From Gemmatimonadota bacterium (GTDB lineage Bacteria; Gemmatimonadota; Gemmatimonadetes; Gemmatimonadales; Gemmatimonadaceae), in NCBI GenBank assembly GCA_028287235.1, contig JAQBQB010000008.1:62001-126000 (forward strand): a DNA stretch of 64,000 bases, written 5' to 3'. Position numbers and translations under genes: made by a program. This document shows positions 16,447-25,604 of this stretch, piece by piece. A model generated the notes under the pieces. That model was not told the DNA's origin and did no database searches. It saw only the letters and a program-made list of their open reading frames with translations. Numbering within the stretch: position 1 is the stretch's first letter; the number at the start of each line of letters is the position of its first letter.

Positions 16447-17907
16447 TTAACAGACCGGTCGCTTGCCGCCCGCGAGATGCGACATGTCGAGCGTCGCTTG
16501 GCCGGCCGGTGTGGCACACTGGCCGGTCGATGGCGCGTCCGGCCACCTGATCGACGGCTGTCGTCCCTTGGCGAGCGCGTCGGCGTGCAGGAAGTACGTT
16601 CCCACGCCCGCCGCACCCTGCATGAATCCCGTCTGCGCCACCACCGCCTGCGGCGACACACGGTTTTCGGCCTGAATCCATTTCAGTCCATCGCCGTCGG
16701 CGGTGGCGCGGGCGAGGGTGTTGGCGGAGACGCGTTGCACCATGTCCGCGTACGCGGCGTTGGGCATCGTTCGCTGTAGCGAGATGAAGAATTCCCCGAC
16801 CCCGGCGTTGCCGCAGCACTGGCTGATGTTGTTCCAATAGCCGGCGGACTGCGTCTCGGGAACGCCCGCGGCGATCGCGGCCCCTGCGCACTGCTCGACG
16901 AGTCCATTCCACTTGTCGCGGCGCGCGATCTGAGCCAGCTGCGCGAATAGCCGCGCGGTGCCTGCTGGGCCGTGGCACCAGCTCAGGTAGTAGAGCTCCT
17001 CGCCGCCCGGCTCGTGATGGAAAACCTTGAACTTGCCGCCGTCGGTCGCGGCGACAGCCTCGAGATACCGTGCCGCGGACAGCGTCGCGGCATACATCGA
17101 CGTGTCCGACGTCGCCTCGAACAACTTGGCGAGGAAGAAGCCGACCCCCGCCGTGCCATGAGAGAAGTTGGGATAGAGAGTTGTGACGCCCGAAGCGAGG
17201 GCCCATTTGGTGCCGGCCTTCTGCGGCACGCCGACCTCGACGAGATGCCGGCCCGCCGCGAGTGCCAGCGCGCGACTCGGCGGGTCGCCGACGGTTTGAT
17301 CGGCCCACAGTAGGAAGAGCCCAATCCCCGCGCTGCCGCTGATGACGTCGTTCGTCGCGCTGGGCCCGGACCATTCCGCGCCGCTGGCGGTCTTCTTCGC
17401 CAGCTGGTGAATCATCTCGATCGCCCGCCTGGCCGCGTCGCGGTATCGGCCCTCGCCCGTCGCGCGGTGCGTCTCCTCGAGCACGAACGCCGCGCCGGCG
17501 AGACCGTCGTACAGCCCAGACGCCTCCGCGGATTGCAGCGCGGGCAGCTGCGCCGTCAACTCGTTCGCGCCGAGTCGTGCGTCGTCGAGCCAGCTTCGGT
17601 CGCCGGTGGCGTCGAAGAGCTCGAGGTGCAAGAGGATGACGCCGGGCATTCCGTTGTAGAGATCATAGCCCACGGAGTCCGGCTTTAGCGGATCGGCGGG
17701 CCAAGTCACGCCGTTCTTCGTCTCGATGCGCGATCGGCGAATCCACCGCGCCGCCTTGAGCGCGACATCGAGGTCGTTCACGGACTTGGCGACAGGCGTC
17801 GCGCCGGGCGTGAGGGCGGACAGCAGACTCGGGCCAGCAATCAACCCGGCGGCGGCGCCGAGCCCCGCGCCGAGCAGCTCTCGGCGTGAGATGGTGTGGC
17901 GGCACAT
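16447..17907 (-). CDS. Tat-exported LanC-like protein
   Basis: A 486-residue protein with a twin-arginine signal (TISRRELLGAGLGAAAG, residues 5-21) and a LanC-type alpha/alpha toroid. Seven GxxG inner-helix motifs are visible: YNGMPG, YDGLAG, ISGSAG, SHGTAG (His250), WCHGPAG (Cys311), CCGNAG (Cys364-Cys365) and MQGAAG. LanC cyclases bind zinc through Cys, Cys and His; here the CHG motif reads CCG, so a Cys3 site is predicted. Start 17907 is supported by GGGAG upstream. LanC enzymes are normally cytoplasmic, so Tat export is odd. No LanB, LanM or precursor peptide gene is adjacent. A cyclase, a thiol-binding protein or a sugar-processing toroid are all possible. Confidence 0.82.
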   Translation of the reverse strand: MCRHTISRRELLGAGLGAAAGLIAGPSLLSALTPGATPVAKSVNDLDVALKAARWIRRSRIETKNGVTWPADPLKPDSVGYDLYNGMPGVILLHLELFDATGDRSWLDDARLGANELTAQLPALQSAEASGLYDGLAGAAFVLEETHRATGEGRYRDAARRAIEMIHQLAKKTASGAEWSGPSATNDVISGSAGIGLFLLWADQTVGDPPSRALALAAGRHLVEVGVPQKAGTKWALASGVTTLYPNFSHGTAGVGFFLAKLFEATSDTSMYAATLSAARYLEAVAATDGGKFKVFHHEPGGEELYYLSWCHGPAGTARLFAQLAQIARRDKWNGLVEQCAGAAIAAGVPETQSAGYWNNISQCCGNAGVGEFFISLQRTMPNAAYADMVQRVSANTLARATADGDGLKWIQAENRVSPQAVVAQTGFMQGAAGVGTYFLHADALAKGRQPSIRWPDAPSTGQCATPAGQATLDMSHLAGGKRPVC

Positions 17908-18432: not shown

Positions 18433-18990
<558 letters not shown>

Positions 18991-19294: not shown

Positions 19295-21988
19295 ATGAAC
19301 GCCATCGCCTTCCTGCTCGCCGCACTTCCTCAGGTCCAACAACAACCGCCTGCGCGCACTGTCTCCGATCCCGGCGTCATCGCCACGGGACAGCGCGTCA
19401 CCCCCGCCGGCGTGCAGAGCGTCTTCGAGGGAAAGGTCGGCGGCGTGCGCTTCGGCAAGACGTCGGACGAGCTGTGGATCGCCGTGCCCGGGTCGGTGCA
19501 GCGAGTCGCCTGGCGCGACAACCGGATGCTCACGCACGCGCATGTGGACGGGCGTCCCGGTATCTACGCGCTGTCGATCGATCCGGCGACGCATCGCGCG
19601 CTGGCGTCGTCGGTCGGACGATTGGCCGCTTCGGCCGGCGCACAAAATCAGCGGCGTCCCGCGGTCGCGCAGCTCAGCACCTTCGACGCCGACGCGTGGG
19701 GCGACTCCGCCACCGTGCGCTTCAACTCCGGGGCGCTCGGCGATTTCATGGCGGGAGCGCCGGCCGTTGCGGCGCGACCCGGTCTCGATGGCAAGCGCCT
19801 CGCGGTGCTTCCGCTCCCGGCCAACGACTCGCTCGCCGTGCTCGACGCCGAATCGGGTGCGTTGCTGCGCAAGATTCCGCTCGGCGTCGAGCCGATCGCG
19901 GCCGTGATCTCGTCCGATTCGCGTGTCGCGTACGTGTCGGTGTTCGGTGGACCAAAGCCGACGGCCAAACAGCGCGCGTCGATGCAATGCTGCGACGTTC
20001 GCTCGGAGGCCGTGCGCGTCGACGCGCGCGGCATCGCCGAGCCGGGAAGTGTGACCCGCGTCGATCTCGCGACGGGAACAGTGGGGCGCGACATCATCGT
20101 TGGACGTCATCCCACGTCGCTCGTGTGGGACGAGACGGGTGAGCGACTGTACGTTGCCGCCGGCAACTCCGACTCCGTGGCCGTGGTCGACACGAAGATG
20201 AACGCTGTGGCGACCTACATTCCGATCGCACCCTTTCGGGAACGAAAGGCGGGCCTTGCTCCCACCGCGCTCGCGCTGTCGCCCGATCGCCGGACGCTCT
20301 ACGTCGCGCTCGGCGGCGTGAACGCGGTGGCTGTGTACGACGTGAGCGTCGCGAAGCCGGTGCTTCGCGGTCTGATTCCAACCGCGTGGTATCCGTCGAG
20401 CATCGACGCGAGCGCCGACGGGCGGTACATCGCCGTGGGGTCGCTGTTCGGCGTGGGCTCGGGTGAGGGAACGCACGGCGGCCAGCGCGGGCGATTCGTG
20501 TTCGCCATTCGCGGCTCGGTCAATGTTATTCCCGTTCCGAGTGCGGCCGAGCTCGCGGCGTACTCAGTGGCGGTGAGCGAGAACAACAAGCTCGCGCTCG
20601 CGTCGTCGCCGGCCGCTATCGCCGCTGCGTCGGCCGGCAACGCGGCGCCGATGGCCGTGCCGCACCGGCCCGGCGATCCGTCACTCATCAATCACGTCGT
20701 GTTCGTCGTGAAGGAGAACAGAACTTTCGATCAAGTGCTGGGCGACCACGACCGCGGCGCGCGCGACAGCTCGCTGGTGATGTACGGCCGCGACGTCACG
20801 CCGAACACGCACGCCCTCTCGCGCCAGTTCGTGACGCTCGATCACTTCTTCGCCTCCGGCGGCAACTCGGCGGACGGCCACCAGTGGCTCACCCAGGCGA
20901 ACGAGACCGAGTATCCGATGTGGCCTCTCTATTTTGGGAGGAGCTATCCGTCGGAAGGCATCGATGCGCTGACGTATTCGTCGGGTGGTTTCCTCTGGGA
21001 GGCGGCGCGCGCAAAGGGAAAGACGGTGTCGGTGTTCGGCGAATACGCGCCGGCGACGAAGACGTCGTCGGACACGGTGCGGCGTCGCATGCTTGCGCAG
21101 TATCGCGAGCGGCCGAATGACTTCGCGTTTCAGCGCGACGTGTTGAAGGCGCGCTACAACACGCATTCCGACATTCCGTCGCTCGACCGCGAGCTGGTGC
21201 GTGAGTATCCCGGCTGGACGGAGGAGGTGCCCGACGTCCTGAAGGCGGGCGACATTCTCGCCCATCTCGCCGACTGGGAGACGCGGCGCGAGATGCCACA
21301 GCTCGTGATGATCATCTTGCCGAACGACCACACGGTTGGCACGTCCGCCGGTTGGTGCGCGCCGCGCGCGTGCGTCGCCGACAACGATCTGGGACTCGGC
21401 AAGATCGTCGAAGGGCTCAGCCATTCGACGTTCTGGAAGGACATGGCGATTCTCGTCGTCGAAGACGACGCACAGGACGGCGTCGATCACATCGACGGGC
21501 ATCGCACGGTGGCGATGGCGATCTCGCCCTACATTCGCCGCGGCGCCGTGGACTCCACGACGTACACACAGCCGAGCATGGTGAAGACGGTCGAGCTCAT
21601 GCTCGGCTTGCCGTCGATGTCGATCTTCGATCTCGTGGCGACCGACATGCGCGCGAGCTTCCTCGCGCCCGGCGAGAAGCCCGACCTCACGCCGTACACG
21701 GCCATCGAGCCGGTGCAGTCGCTGTTCGACGTCAACCAGCGCGTCGGCTCTATCGACGGAAAGTTCTCCGCCGAACGGCGGAACGCGGCGCGGGAGTCGG
21801 CGCGCATGGACTTCCGGAATCCCGATGAAGCGCCAAGTGAGCGGTTGAATCGAATCTTGTGGCACGACGCCAGAGGGTGGAGCGCGCCGTATCCTGCAGT
21901 GCAACGAGCGTTGTTCTTTCCGCTTGCCGTCGACGTTGCGGACGAGGATCGGCGCGAGAAACGGCCCGCGGCGAAGAAGCGCGAGTGA
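19295..21988 (+). CDS. YncE-type beta-propeller fused to alkaline-phosphatase-like phosphoesterase
   Basis: An 897-residue exported protein. After a short signal peptide (MNAIAFLLAALPQVQQQ) residues about 40-430 are a YVTN-type seven-bladed propeller (RLYVAAGNSDSVAVVDTKM, RTLYVALGGVNAVAVYDVS). From about 465 an acid-phosphatase/phospholipase-C-type phosphoesterase begins (NHVVFVVKENRTFDQVLGD), with HFFASGGNSADGHQW and ILPNDHTVGTSAG as metal-site segments. This domain pair is known in other bacteria; the propeller may position a substrate. The open frame extends to 19118 but the signal peptide favours 19295. The hairpin at 22074 ends the transcript. Confidence 0.87.
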   Translation: MNAIAFLLAALPQVQQQPPARTVSDPGVIATGQRVTPAGVQSVFEGKVGGVRFGKTSDELWIAVPGSVQRVAWRDNRMLTHAHVDGRPGIYALSIDPATHRALASSVGRLAASAGAQNQRRPAVAQLSTFDADAWGDSATVRFNSGALGDFMAGAPAVAARPGLDGKRLAVLPLPANDSLAVLDAESGALLRKIPLGVEPIAAVISSDSRVAYVSVFGGPKPTAKQRASMQCCDVRSEAVRVDARGIAEPGSVTRVDLATGTVGRDIIVGRHPTSLVWDETGERLYVAAGNSDSVAVVDTKMNAVATYIPIAPFRERKAGLAPTALALSPDRRTLYVALGGVNAVAVYDVSVAKPVLRGLIPTAWYPSSIDASADGRYIAVGSLFGVGSGEGTHGGQRGRFVFAIRGSVNVIPVPSAAELAAYSVAVSENNKLALASSPAAIAAASAGNAAPMAVPHRPGDPSLINHVVFVVKENRTFDQVLGDHDRGARDSSLVMYGRDVTPNTHALSRQFVTLDHFFASGGNSADGHQWLTQANETEYPMWPLYFGRSYPSEGIDALTYSSGGFLWEAARAKGKTVSVFGEYAPATKTSSDTVRRRMLAQYRERPNDFAFQRDVLKARYNTHSDIPSLDRELVREYPGWTEEVPDVLKAGDILAHLADWETRREMPQLVMIILPNDHTVGTSAGWCAPRACVADNDLGLGKIVEGLSHSTFWKDMAILVVEDDAQDGVDHIDGHRTVAMAISPYIRRGAVDSTTYTQPSMVKTVELMLGLPSMSIFDLVATDMRASFLAPGEKPDLTPYTAIEPVQSLFDVNQRVGSIDGKFSAERRNAARESARMDFRNPDEAPSERLNRILWHDARGWSAPYPAVQRALFFPLAVDVADEDRREKRPAAKKRE

Positions 21989-23801: not shown

Positions 23802-25604
23802 ATGAAAGGGCCGGCTGTCGCCGGCCTCGTCGGGTTGTGCGTCGCCGCGTCCATCGTGGGCGCGGCGATCCGGCGAGGGCCCAACTCCGCGCCGAGCGCC
23901 ACGCTGGGCGACGACGTCCGCCATTGGATCGCGCGCGACGCCGATTCGCTGGACGCGGCGATCGTGCAGCTCGGCGTCGCGCTCGGCGACACGACCGTGG
24001 ACGTTCGGCCCGCATTCCGACTCGCCCGCGCGCGCTACAAGCGCCTGGAAGGTGTCGTGGAATTTTACGCGCCGGCGTTGGCGGCGGCGTTCAATTCGCG
24101 CCGCATGGAAGTGGACGACGACGACGCGCCGCCGCCCTCCTCGATCGCCGCGAATGGATTTCCCGCGCTCGAGGATCTCCTGTGGCCAACGCTGATCGCC
24201 GCACGACGAGACAGCGCGCGGCGCTTGGTCAACGCCATGCGTCCGTCGGTCGCTCGCGTGCGCGGGCTCGCGGCGGCCATTTCGCCGACCGATGCGCAGG
24301 TGATCGAGCTCACGCGCCTCGAGCTCGTTCGAGTGTCGACGCTCGGGGTCGCCGGCTTCGATGCACCGCGCACCGGCGAGGCGATGGGCGAGTGTGCCGA
24401 GGCGCTCGCGGGTGTTCGCGCGTTGTACGCCGCCGCCGGTGCGCGCTGGCCGCGCCTCGGCGCCGAACGCCGGGCGCTCGACTCCACCCTCGCCGCGGCG
24501 ATCGGTTATCTCCGTGCACACGGCGACTTCGTCGCGTTCGACCGGTTGGCGTATCTCACCGACTTCGGCGAGCCGGCGGCGCGCGCGCTCGATGCCGTTC
24601 GCCGCGCGGTGAACGCGCCGTCGATCTCGATGCGCCGCGGACTGCGTGCCACCGTGGCCTCGCCGTACGCGGTGAACGCCTTCGATCCGCGCGCCTATGC
24701 GCCCGCCACGGCGCCGCCCTCGTCCGACTCGCTCGTCGCGTTGGGGCGGCGGCTCTTCTTCAACCCCGCGCTGTCGGGGACGGGAAAGCGCAGTTGCGCC
24801 TCTTGCCACGATCCATCGCGCGCATTCGCCGACGGGCTGCCGAAGGCGGCGAGCGTCGATCCGCGCGGACGAGCGGTTGCCCGCAACACGTCTACGTTGA
24901 TCAACGCGGCGCTGCAGCCCGCTCAGTTCGCCGACGAGCGCGCCGTCGCGCTCGAGGATCAGATCATCGAGGTGCTGCGCAGTCCGGCGGAGATGGGAAG
25001 CTCGGTGGACGCCGCGGCGCGCGCGGTGAGCACCGCCGCTCGCCAGATGACGCCGCTCACTCTCAGGCAGGCGCTTGCGGCGTACCTCCGGACGTTGGTC
25101 GCGCTCGACTCGCGCTTCGATCGCGCGGTGCGCGGCGACGGCACGGTGCTGAGCGCCGAGGAACGGCGGGGCTTCAATCTGTTCATGGGAAAGGGAAGCT
25201 GCGGCACATGTCACTTCGCGCCCCTCTTCGGCGGAACCACGCCTCCGCTCTACGTCGGATCCGACGTGGAGGTGATCGGAACGCCGGTGAGCCCGGACCG
25301 GCCGGCGGTGCTCGACGCCGACTCGGGGCGCGCGCGCATAGATCACCGGCCCGAGCATCTGCGCGCGTTCAAGGTGCCGTCGCTCCGAAACGTGGCGCTC
25401 ACGGCGCCCTACATGCATCACGGTACCTTCAGCACACTGGATCAGGTCGTTCGCTTCTATGACGGCGGTGGTGGACGCGGTGCGGGCGCGCGCATCGCAA
25501 ACCAGACGCTCGCCGCCGATTCGCTGCATCTTTCGGCGAGGGAACGACAGGCGATCGTCGCGTTCCTCGGTGCGCTGACCGACACCGCGAAGCTCCGGCG
25601 CTAG
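23802..25604 (+). CDS. di-heme cytochrome c peroxidase with imelysin-like N-terminal region
   Basis: A 600-residue membrane-anchored or secreted protein. Two CxxCH heme sites are visible: CASCH at about residue 332 and CGTCH at about 467, the pattern of bacterial di-heme peroxidases (MauG/CcpA type), which act in the periplasm on hydrogen peroxide or substrates. MHHGTFSTLDQVVRFYDGGG is the conserved C-terminal segment. Residues about 85-270 are helical and contain GFPALEDLLWP, similar to imelysin/EfeO-type iron-uptake domains; this assignment is tentative. I prefer ATG 23802 (GGAAG 8 bases before) over GTG 23796, which overlaps the upstream stop. Confidence 0.84.
   Translation: MKGPAVAGLVGLCVAASIVGAAIRRGPNSAPSATLGDDVRHWIARDADSLDAAIVQLGVALGDTTVDVRPAFRLARARYKRLEGVVEFYAPALAAAFNSRRMEVDDDDAPPPSSIAANGFPALEDLLWPTLIAARRDSARRLVNAMRPSVARVRGLAAAISPTDAQVIELTRLELVRVSTLGVAGFDAPRTGEAMGECAEALAGVRALYAAAGARWPRLGAERRALDSTLAAAIGYLRAHGDFVAFDRLAYLTDFGEPAARALDAVRRAVNAPSISMRRGLRATVASPYAVNAFDPRAYAPATAPPSSDSLVALGRRLFFNPALSGTGKRSCASCHDPSRAFADGLPKAASVDPRGRAVARNTSTLINAALQPAQFADERAVALEDQIIEVLRSPAEMGSSVDAAARAVSTAARQMTPLTLRQALAAYLRTLVALDSRFDRAVRGDGTVLSAEERRGFNLFMGKGSCGTCHFAPLFGGTTPPLYVGSDVEVIGTPVSPDRPAVLDADSGRARIDHRPEHLRAFKVPSLRNVALTAPYMHHGTFSTLDQVVRFYDGGGGRGAGARIANQTLAADSLHLSARERQAIVAFLGALTDTAKLRR

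Follow-up and report, generated by a model that had tools for sequence, protein, structure and literature searches.

The window analyzed here, a stretch of 64,000 nucleotides from a Gemmatimonadota genome, encodes a LanC-like protein that is predicted to leave the cytoplasm and that belongs to a separate exported clade. We tentatively propose, at somewhat less than even probability, that this protein is a Tat-exported zinc enzyme that applies LanC-type thiol chemistry to a defined substrate, a small peptide or a compound derived from amino acids, in a salvage setting. Judged from sequence, the proposal draws on a toroid with intact LanC catalytic residues, on twin-arginine signals, on the separate standing of the clade and on genomes that mostly lack a dehydratase. 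The role is probably new, because the protein carries an export signal, belongs to a conserved exported family and has no lantibiotic genes beside it. To our knowledge, the LanC enzymes described so far act inside the cell, on lantibiotic precursors or damaged proteins. No exported or periplasmic LanC-like protein was found in the literature searched, a weak negative given thin coverage of subscription journals.

The gene occupies positions 16447-17907 of the minus strand, with its ATG at 17907, and encodes 486 amino acids; an earlier sequence-only reading of this DNA had placed it correctly and gave no strand. That reading had described a LanC-like toroid with seven GxxG motifs, and inspection of the translation recovers all of them (G86/89, 135/138, 191/194, 251/254, 313/316, 366/369 and 431/434), together with SHGTAG (249-254), WCHGPAG (310-316) and CCGNAG (364-369) and with Cys311, Cys364 and Cys365 numbered as before. 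The profile search that it proposed returns PF05147 (LanC_like) at 131.8 bits (cut-off 23.2), covering residues 79-442 and profile positions 3-337 of 350. With a match over the whole domain and LanC-family fold matches, the toroid claim is borne out. Of the named subfamilies, LanM (152 bits) and LanL (139 bits) match best, each in part and at its cyclase end, with values well below the cut-offs of those models, which are set for entire multi-domain enzymes. Homologues reach at most 61-62% identity over nearly the full length, and this single-domain protein is the sole LanC domain found in its own genome (5.7 Mb assembled into 31 contigs). The features of the gene are as follows.

16447-17907, minus strand: whole gene of the predicted exported LanC-like protein, 486 aa (open reading frame, PF05147 match, homologues).
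17788-17907, minus strand: Tat-type signal region, about residues 1-40, predicted from an RR pair and a hydrophobic stretch; twin arginine 8-9 at 17881-17886; no obvious signal-peptidase site.
16582-17673, minus strand: LanC_like toroid domain, residues 79-442 (PF05147; model Z 26-39 to LanC, LanCL, LanM, LanKC and LanL structures).
17347-17349, minus strand: Asp187, the invariant aspartate of LanC enzymes, in 34/34 family members and 15/16 other LanC domains.
17146-17163, minus strand: SHGTAG 249-254 including His250, 34/34; aligned with LanCL1 His219, the catalytic acid (PMC9934072).
16969-16980, minus strand: WCHG 310-313, with Cys311 as putative first zinc ligand and His312, both 34/34; aligned with LanCL1 WCHG.
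16801-16818, minus strand: CCGNAG 364-369, with Cys364 and Cys365 as putative second and third zinc ligands, 34/34; aligned with CuvL QCCGLAG and LanCL1 CHG.
16615-16680, minus strand: clade-specific motif W410-x-QAExR...QTGxMQG431; Q412, E414, Q425, T426 and Q430 in 34/34, rare or absent in 16 other Gemmatimonadota LanC domains.

An AlphaFold2 model built from the window protein and twelve relatives (mean pLDDT 84) contains seven helix pairs, with low confidence at residues 1-8 and 15-37. The top structural matches of this model are all LanC-family proteins, led by CuvL (Z 39.4), Arabidopsis GCR2 (37.5), LanCL2 (36.2) and MadC (36.1) and followed by LanCL1 and NisC (35.0 each) and by LanM and LanKC (26-34). 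Glycosidase toroids rank below them at Z 24 or less, with GH47 and GH76 next, and nothing in a viral structure library matched at E below 0.001. Sequence alignment to LanCL1 pairs His250 with His219, Cys311-His312 with Cys276-His277, and Cys364-Cys365 with Cys322-His323; the third ligand would therefore be Cys and not His. By alignment to LanC enzymes of known structure, Cys311, Cys364 and Cys365 probably meet in the fold, where they would hold one zinc that activates a thiolate. His250 is the likely acid in catalysis, its LanCL1 counterpart His219 being the acid that protonates the enolate (PMC9934072). The Cys-Cys-Gly ligand pair had been regarded as unusual, and its candidacy as a new metal motif was rejected: CCG is the motif of ProcM-type LanM enzymes, where it marks promiscuous members such as ProcM (PMC10027976), and it is present in CuvL too.

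Comparison with known systems places the window protein among these enzymes while setting it apart from each. The best match in both sequence and fold is the cyclase domain of CuvL, a class IV synthetase (PDB 8CAR/8CAV; 69.7 bits by profile, 22% identity), whose zinc motif QCCGLAG aligns with QCCGNAG of the window protein. CuvL is larger and is described as trifunctional, whereas the window protein consists of one domain, carries a Tat signal and differs in its C-terminal motif. ProcM-type LanM enzymes carry the CCG zinc motif and follow the first zinc cysteine with a His, matching WCHG of the window protein, but they also possess a dehydratase domain and act on leader-bearing precursors. Human LanCL1 and LanCL2 (Z 35-36) have the stand-alone toroid, WCHG and the catalytic His in common with it, yet they present CHG in place of CCG and lack an export signal, and their glutathione-binding residues are not kept as such in the window protein. 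The class I enzymes NisC and MadC (Z 35-36) are likewise stand-alone cyclase toroids; unlike the window protein, they have LanB as a partner dehydratase and no signal peptide, and the third zinc ligand of NisC is His.

The window protein begins with MCRHTISRRELLGAGLGAAAGLIAG. A twin arginine followed a few residues on by a hydrophobic stretch is present in 32 of 34 homologues, compared with 34 of 354 other genes from the same regions under the same rule, which greatly exceeds chance. The window's genome has a TatC gene, so that Tat export, as claimed from the sequence alone, holds as a prediction, and the predicted signal speaks against a cytoplasmic location for the family. Homologues devoid of both the signal and the cysteines would have told against the earlier claim; the survey of homologues that it called for found instead the signal at the frequency above and Cys311, Cys364 and Cys365 in all 34. 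The two exceptions to the twin-arginine rule are the Verrucomicrobiota member (L044), with a Sec-like N-terminus, and the Pseudomonadales member (L043), with no signal. A possible lipobox (LGVSSC) lies at the end of the signal in the Robiginitomaculum member.

Within the phylum, a protein search places the exported family in 32 of 298 Gemmatimonadota genomes and 14 of 119 genera. Named relatives outside it come from Verrucomicrobiota, Pseudomonadales and Robiginitomaculum, where the family is rare (1/369, 2/337 and, for the Robiginitomaculum group, 1/337 genomes, in samples that count the query genome each time). Across the alignment of 34 different homologues, His250, His297, His312 and Asp187 are invariant along with the three cysteines named above, but conservation does not extend to the window protein's remaining cysteines.

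Counting every kind of LanC domain, 58 of the 298 genomes have at least one. Sixteen domains other than those of the exported family were read from Gemmatimonadota, with CHG in 15 and CCG in one, and no obvious export signal appears at the N-termini read among them. A maximum-likelihood tree separates the exported family from all 16 by a branch supported at 99/99. Twelve positions hold a residue that never varies within the exported clade and is rare or absent in the other 16: P246, N247, H297, Y307, W358, C365, Q412, E414, A424, Q425, T426 and Q430. By hand alignment, the last group of these falls in the C-terminal strand and loop where LanCL1 holds glutathione, which it does through Arg364, Asp367 and Glu374 (PMC9934072). 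On that hand alignment, the clade-specific C-terminal part may line the same pocket as the LanCL1 glutathione site, and a polar pocket held constant in this way would point to a single defined ligand and not a broad peptide set. As a separate observation, the LanC domain L149 (G251), which lies outside the exported clade, reads LCCG in place of CHG.

Several relatives depart from the family pattern. A 688-aa protein (L066:9498-11564, minus strand) fuses an alpha/beta-hydrolase (Abhydrolase_6) to a LanC-like domain in a genome that also has a normal family member. Its LanC-like part reads WAHG and RFG, with all zinc ligands lost; we dropped the fusion as a functional guide, because without those ligands it says little about the core family. 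The diverged relative L067 (G069:C1:1636807-1637685 region) has a Tat lipoprotein-like start, SRRDFIRLAAAGAGIVALPPWLYGCA, and keeps RCCGLAG without WCHG. The Pseudomonadales member (L043:5950-7305) reads QCCCDAG and scores above the Pfam cut-offs for both LANC_like and GH127, hinting at a possible link of LanC toroids to cysteine glycosidases.

No lantibiotic genes adjoin the window gene, in agreement with the earlier reading, and domain searches (DUF4135, PF04738) detect no LanB or LanM dehydratase in the whole assembly either. A dehydratase is needed for a lantibiotic role. Among the 32 carriers of the exported family, DUF4135 (class II) is found in three and PF04738 (class I) scores above its cut-off in three others, such that a lantibiotic dehydratase by these criteria is absent from 26, the window's genome among them. 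No small gene recurs beside the exported LanC genes, with genes called at 60 aa or longer. The glutathione synthetase domain PF02955, the one route to glutathione that was searched for, is undetected in 25 of the 32 carriers, again including the window's genome. These counts weaken two roles offered by the sequence-only reading, cyclisation of an exported protein (dehydratase) and glutathione handling (PF02955). Its interpretation thus stands in part: the toroid, the predicted Tat export and the lack of lantibiotic machinery are retained, whereas the peculiarity of CCG is not and both roles have lost ground.

The LanC-like gene is on its own in the window. A DUF4139-type gene converges on it from the downstream side, and on the upstream side are a 73-aa gene and a glycine-rich lipoprotein-like gene of no known family. 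Three genes in this part of the window can be described separately.

18433-18990, minus strand: small lipoprotein-like gene with a long glycine run and no Pfam family.
19295-21988, plus strand: propeller-plus-phosphoesterase (PF04185, lactonase-type repeats), near the LanC gene and divergent from it.
23802-25604, plus strand: di-haem cytochrome c peroxidase (MauG-like), its N-terminal part weakly imelysin-like.

Because the exported LanC gene is also alone in most members of the organism's taxonomic family, the neighbourhood argument rests on relatives. Typically in genus g62, a propeller-amidohydrolase gene stops 1 base short of the LanC gene, and this in turn abuts or overlaps one for a PLP amino-acid decarboxylase; a xanthine/uracil-type permease follows, with an M19 dipeptidase further on. 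Genus g38 has a threonine/serine dehydratase overlapping a D-aminoacylase that abuts the LanC gene. After the LanC gene of genus g8 come an M19 dipeptidase, the only one of that genome, and two genes that look by eye like a split L-serine dehydratase; in genus g9 the genes faced by LanC are those of an M19 dipeptidase and a D-aminoacylase-like protein.

These arrangements, whose neighbour families were chosen after seeing the data, were weighed against 40 control windows (790 kb) taken from the same genomes. Among the 14 genera, 4 have an M19 dipeptidase within 10 kb of the LanC gene; 2 of 40 control windows contain one, and M19 counts per genome give an expectation of 0.36 genera. An amino-acid decarboxylase sits directly downstream in three genera, compared with 3 such genes in the 790 kb of control sequence. 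The nearby M19 proteins are 25-32% identical and the decarboxylases form two subfamilies, 33-37% identical, so that repeated, separate recruitment is probable. Adjacency of D-aminoacylases is mildly above control and no more. Amidohydrolase adjacency was dropped as strong evidence, being present in 9 of 40 control windows with no clear enrichment. No sugar-related genes recur near the exported LanC genes. Taken over the relatives, the gene neighbourhood points to peptide and amino-acid breakdown.

In the mechanism that we propose, folding, and presumably zinc uptake as well, would take place in the cytoplasm before Tat exports the protein. Zinc on Cys311, Cys364 and Cys365 would activate a thiolate, with His250 as the acid, and a C-S bond would be made or broken in the periplasm by thia-Michael addition or its reverse. 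This reaction may be one of the steps by which peptides and amino acids are salvaged through an exported route that also involves M19 dipeptidases, amidohydrolases and cytoplasmic PLP enzymes. The original name of the M19 enzymes was dehydropeptidases, given because they cleave dehydroamino-acid peptides; this is a lead that would fit the salvage reading. Counting against the proposed C-S chemistry, we know of no periplasmic source of dehydroamino acids. That lanthionine-type or S-conjugated peptides are dismantled by retro-Michael elimination before dipeptidase cleavage, in a periplasmic LanC branch serving nutrition, strikes us as distinctly unlikely; if true, it would mean that LanC chemistry is used for breakdown and not for synthesis.

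Other readings assign the toroid a different task. It could be a zinc protein that is non-catalytic or acts in another way: a carrier of thiols or metal, a binding protein, or a zinc-dependent hydrolase acting alongside the neighbouring hydrolases. Zinc ligands are lost in two diverged relatives (all three in L066, WCHG in L067), and class III LanKC enzymes are reported to show that the fold can work without zinc (PMC10604976). Such a role is hard to square with three cysteines and catalytic His residues that are invariant in 34 core members from three phyla, and we consider it unlikely while granting it appreciable weight. A periplasmic LanCL-like transferase would quench dehydroamino acids and other electrophiles by adding to them a small thiol such as glutathione. 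In its favour, LanCL1, which adds glutathione (PMC9934072), shares WCHG and both catalytic His residues with the window protein, and the hand alignment brings the clade-specific polar motif near the LanCL1 glutathione-binding strand. The same alignment, however, puts Gln430 in place of Glu374, which holds glutathione in LanCL1, and the scarcity of PF02955 in the carriers, including the window's genome, also argues against this transferase; we judge it quite improbable.

The putative site resembles that of GH127/GH146 cysteine glycosidases, which have a Cys3 zinc site with an adjacent Cys pair, and a convergent cysteine glycosidase would use a zinc-bound cysteine nucleophile to hydrolyse a glycoside. 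In GH127 HypBA1, zinc is surrounded by C340, C417, C418 and a glutamate (PMC10728902). The Pseudomonadales homologue L043 matches GH127 at 35.8 bits, above cut-off, Glu414 offers an invariant acidic residue in the exported clade, and exported toroids are often glycosidases, GH47 and GH76 being the fold matches next after the LanC family. The window protein itself matches GH127 weakly, at 16.6 bits under a cut-off of 24.9, and the glutamate ligand is missing: GH127 has E338 two residues before C340, whereas the position two before Cys311, equated with that glutamate from spacing only, is Ser309 in 31 of 34 homologues, Gly or Ala in the rest, and never Glu. In sequence and fold alike the protein is much nearer to LanC enzymes, the neighbourhoods show no recurrent sugar-related genes, and a glycosidase is very unlikely in our estimate. 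GH127 was not among the first 50 fold matches listed, which carries no weight as evidence. An exported lanthionine cyclase, closing thioether rings on an exported ribosomal peptide, would be in keeping with retention of every LanC catalytic residue and with CCG enzymes such as ProcM being the most promiscuous cyclases (PMC10027976). The absence of LanB or LanM from the window's genome and 26 of 32 carriers, the lack of a conserved small peptide gene of at least 60 aa beside the LanC gene, and the separation of the clade from the phylum's other LanC domains speak against such a cyclase, which is hardly to be expected.

A conserved exported clade with the full catalytic set, invariant residues of its own and no lantibiotic genes would represent an unrecognised job of the LanC superfamily outside the cytoplasm. 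Genome mining that starts from PF05147 leaves such genes unclassified, and LanC genes without dehydratase partners are discarded (PMC7268733). Two genomes of the survey carry an exported LanC gene that is seemingly interrupted or altered: in G092 (L011/L039) it is split into frames of 343 and 116 aa, and in G058 (L065) it gives two separate matches, to query residues 1-140 and 184-460.
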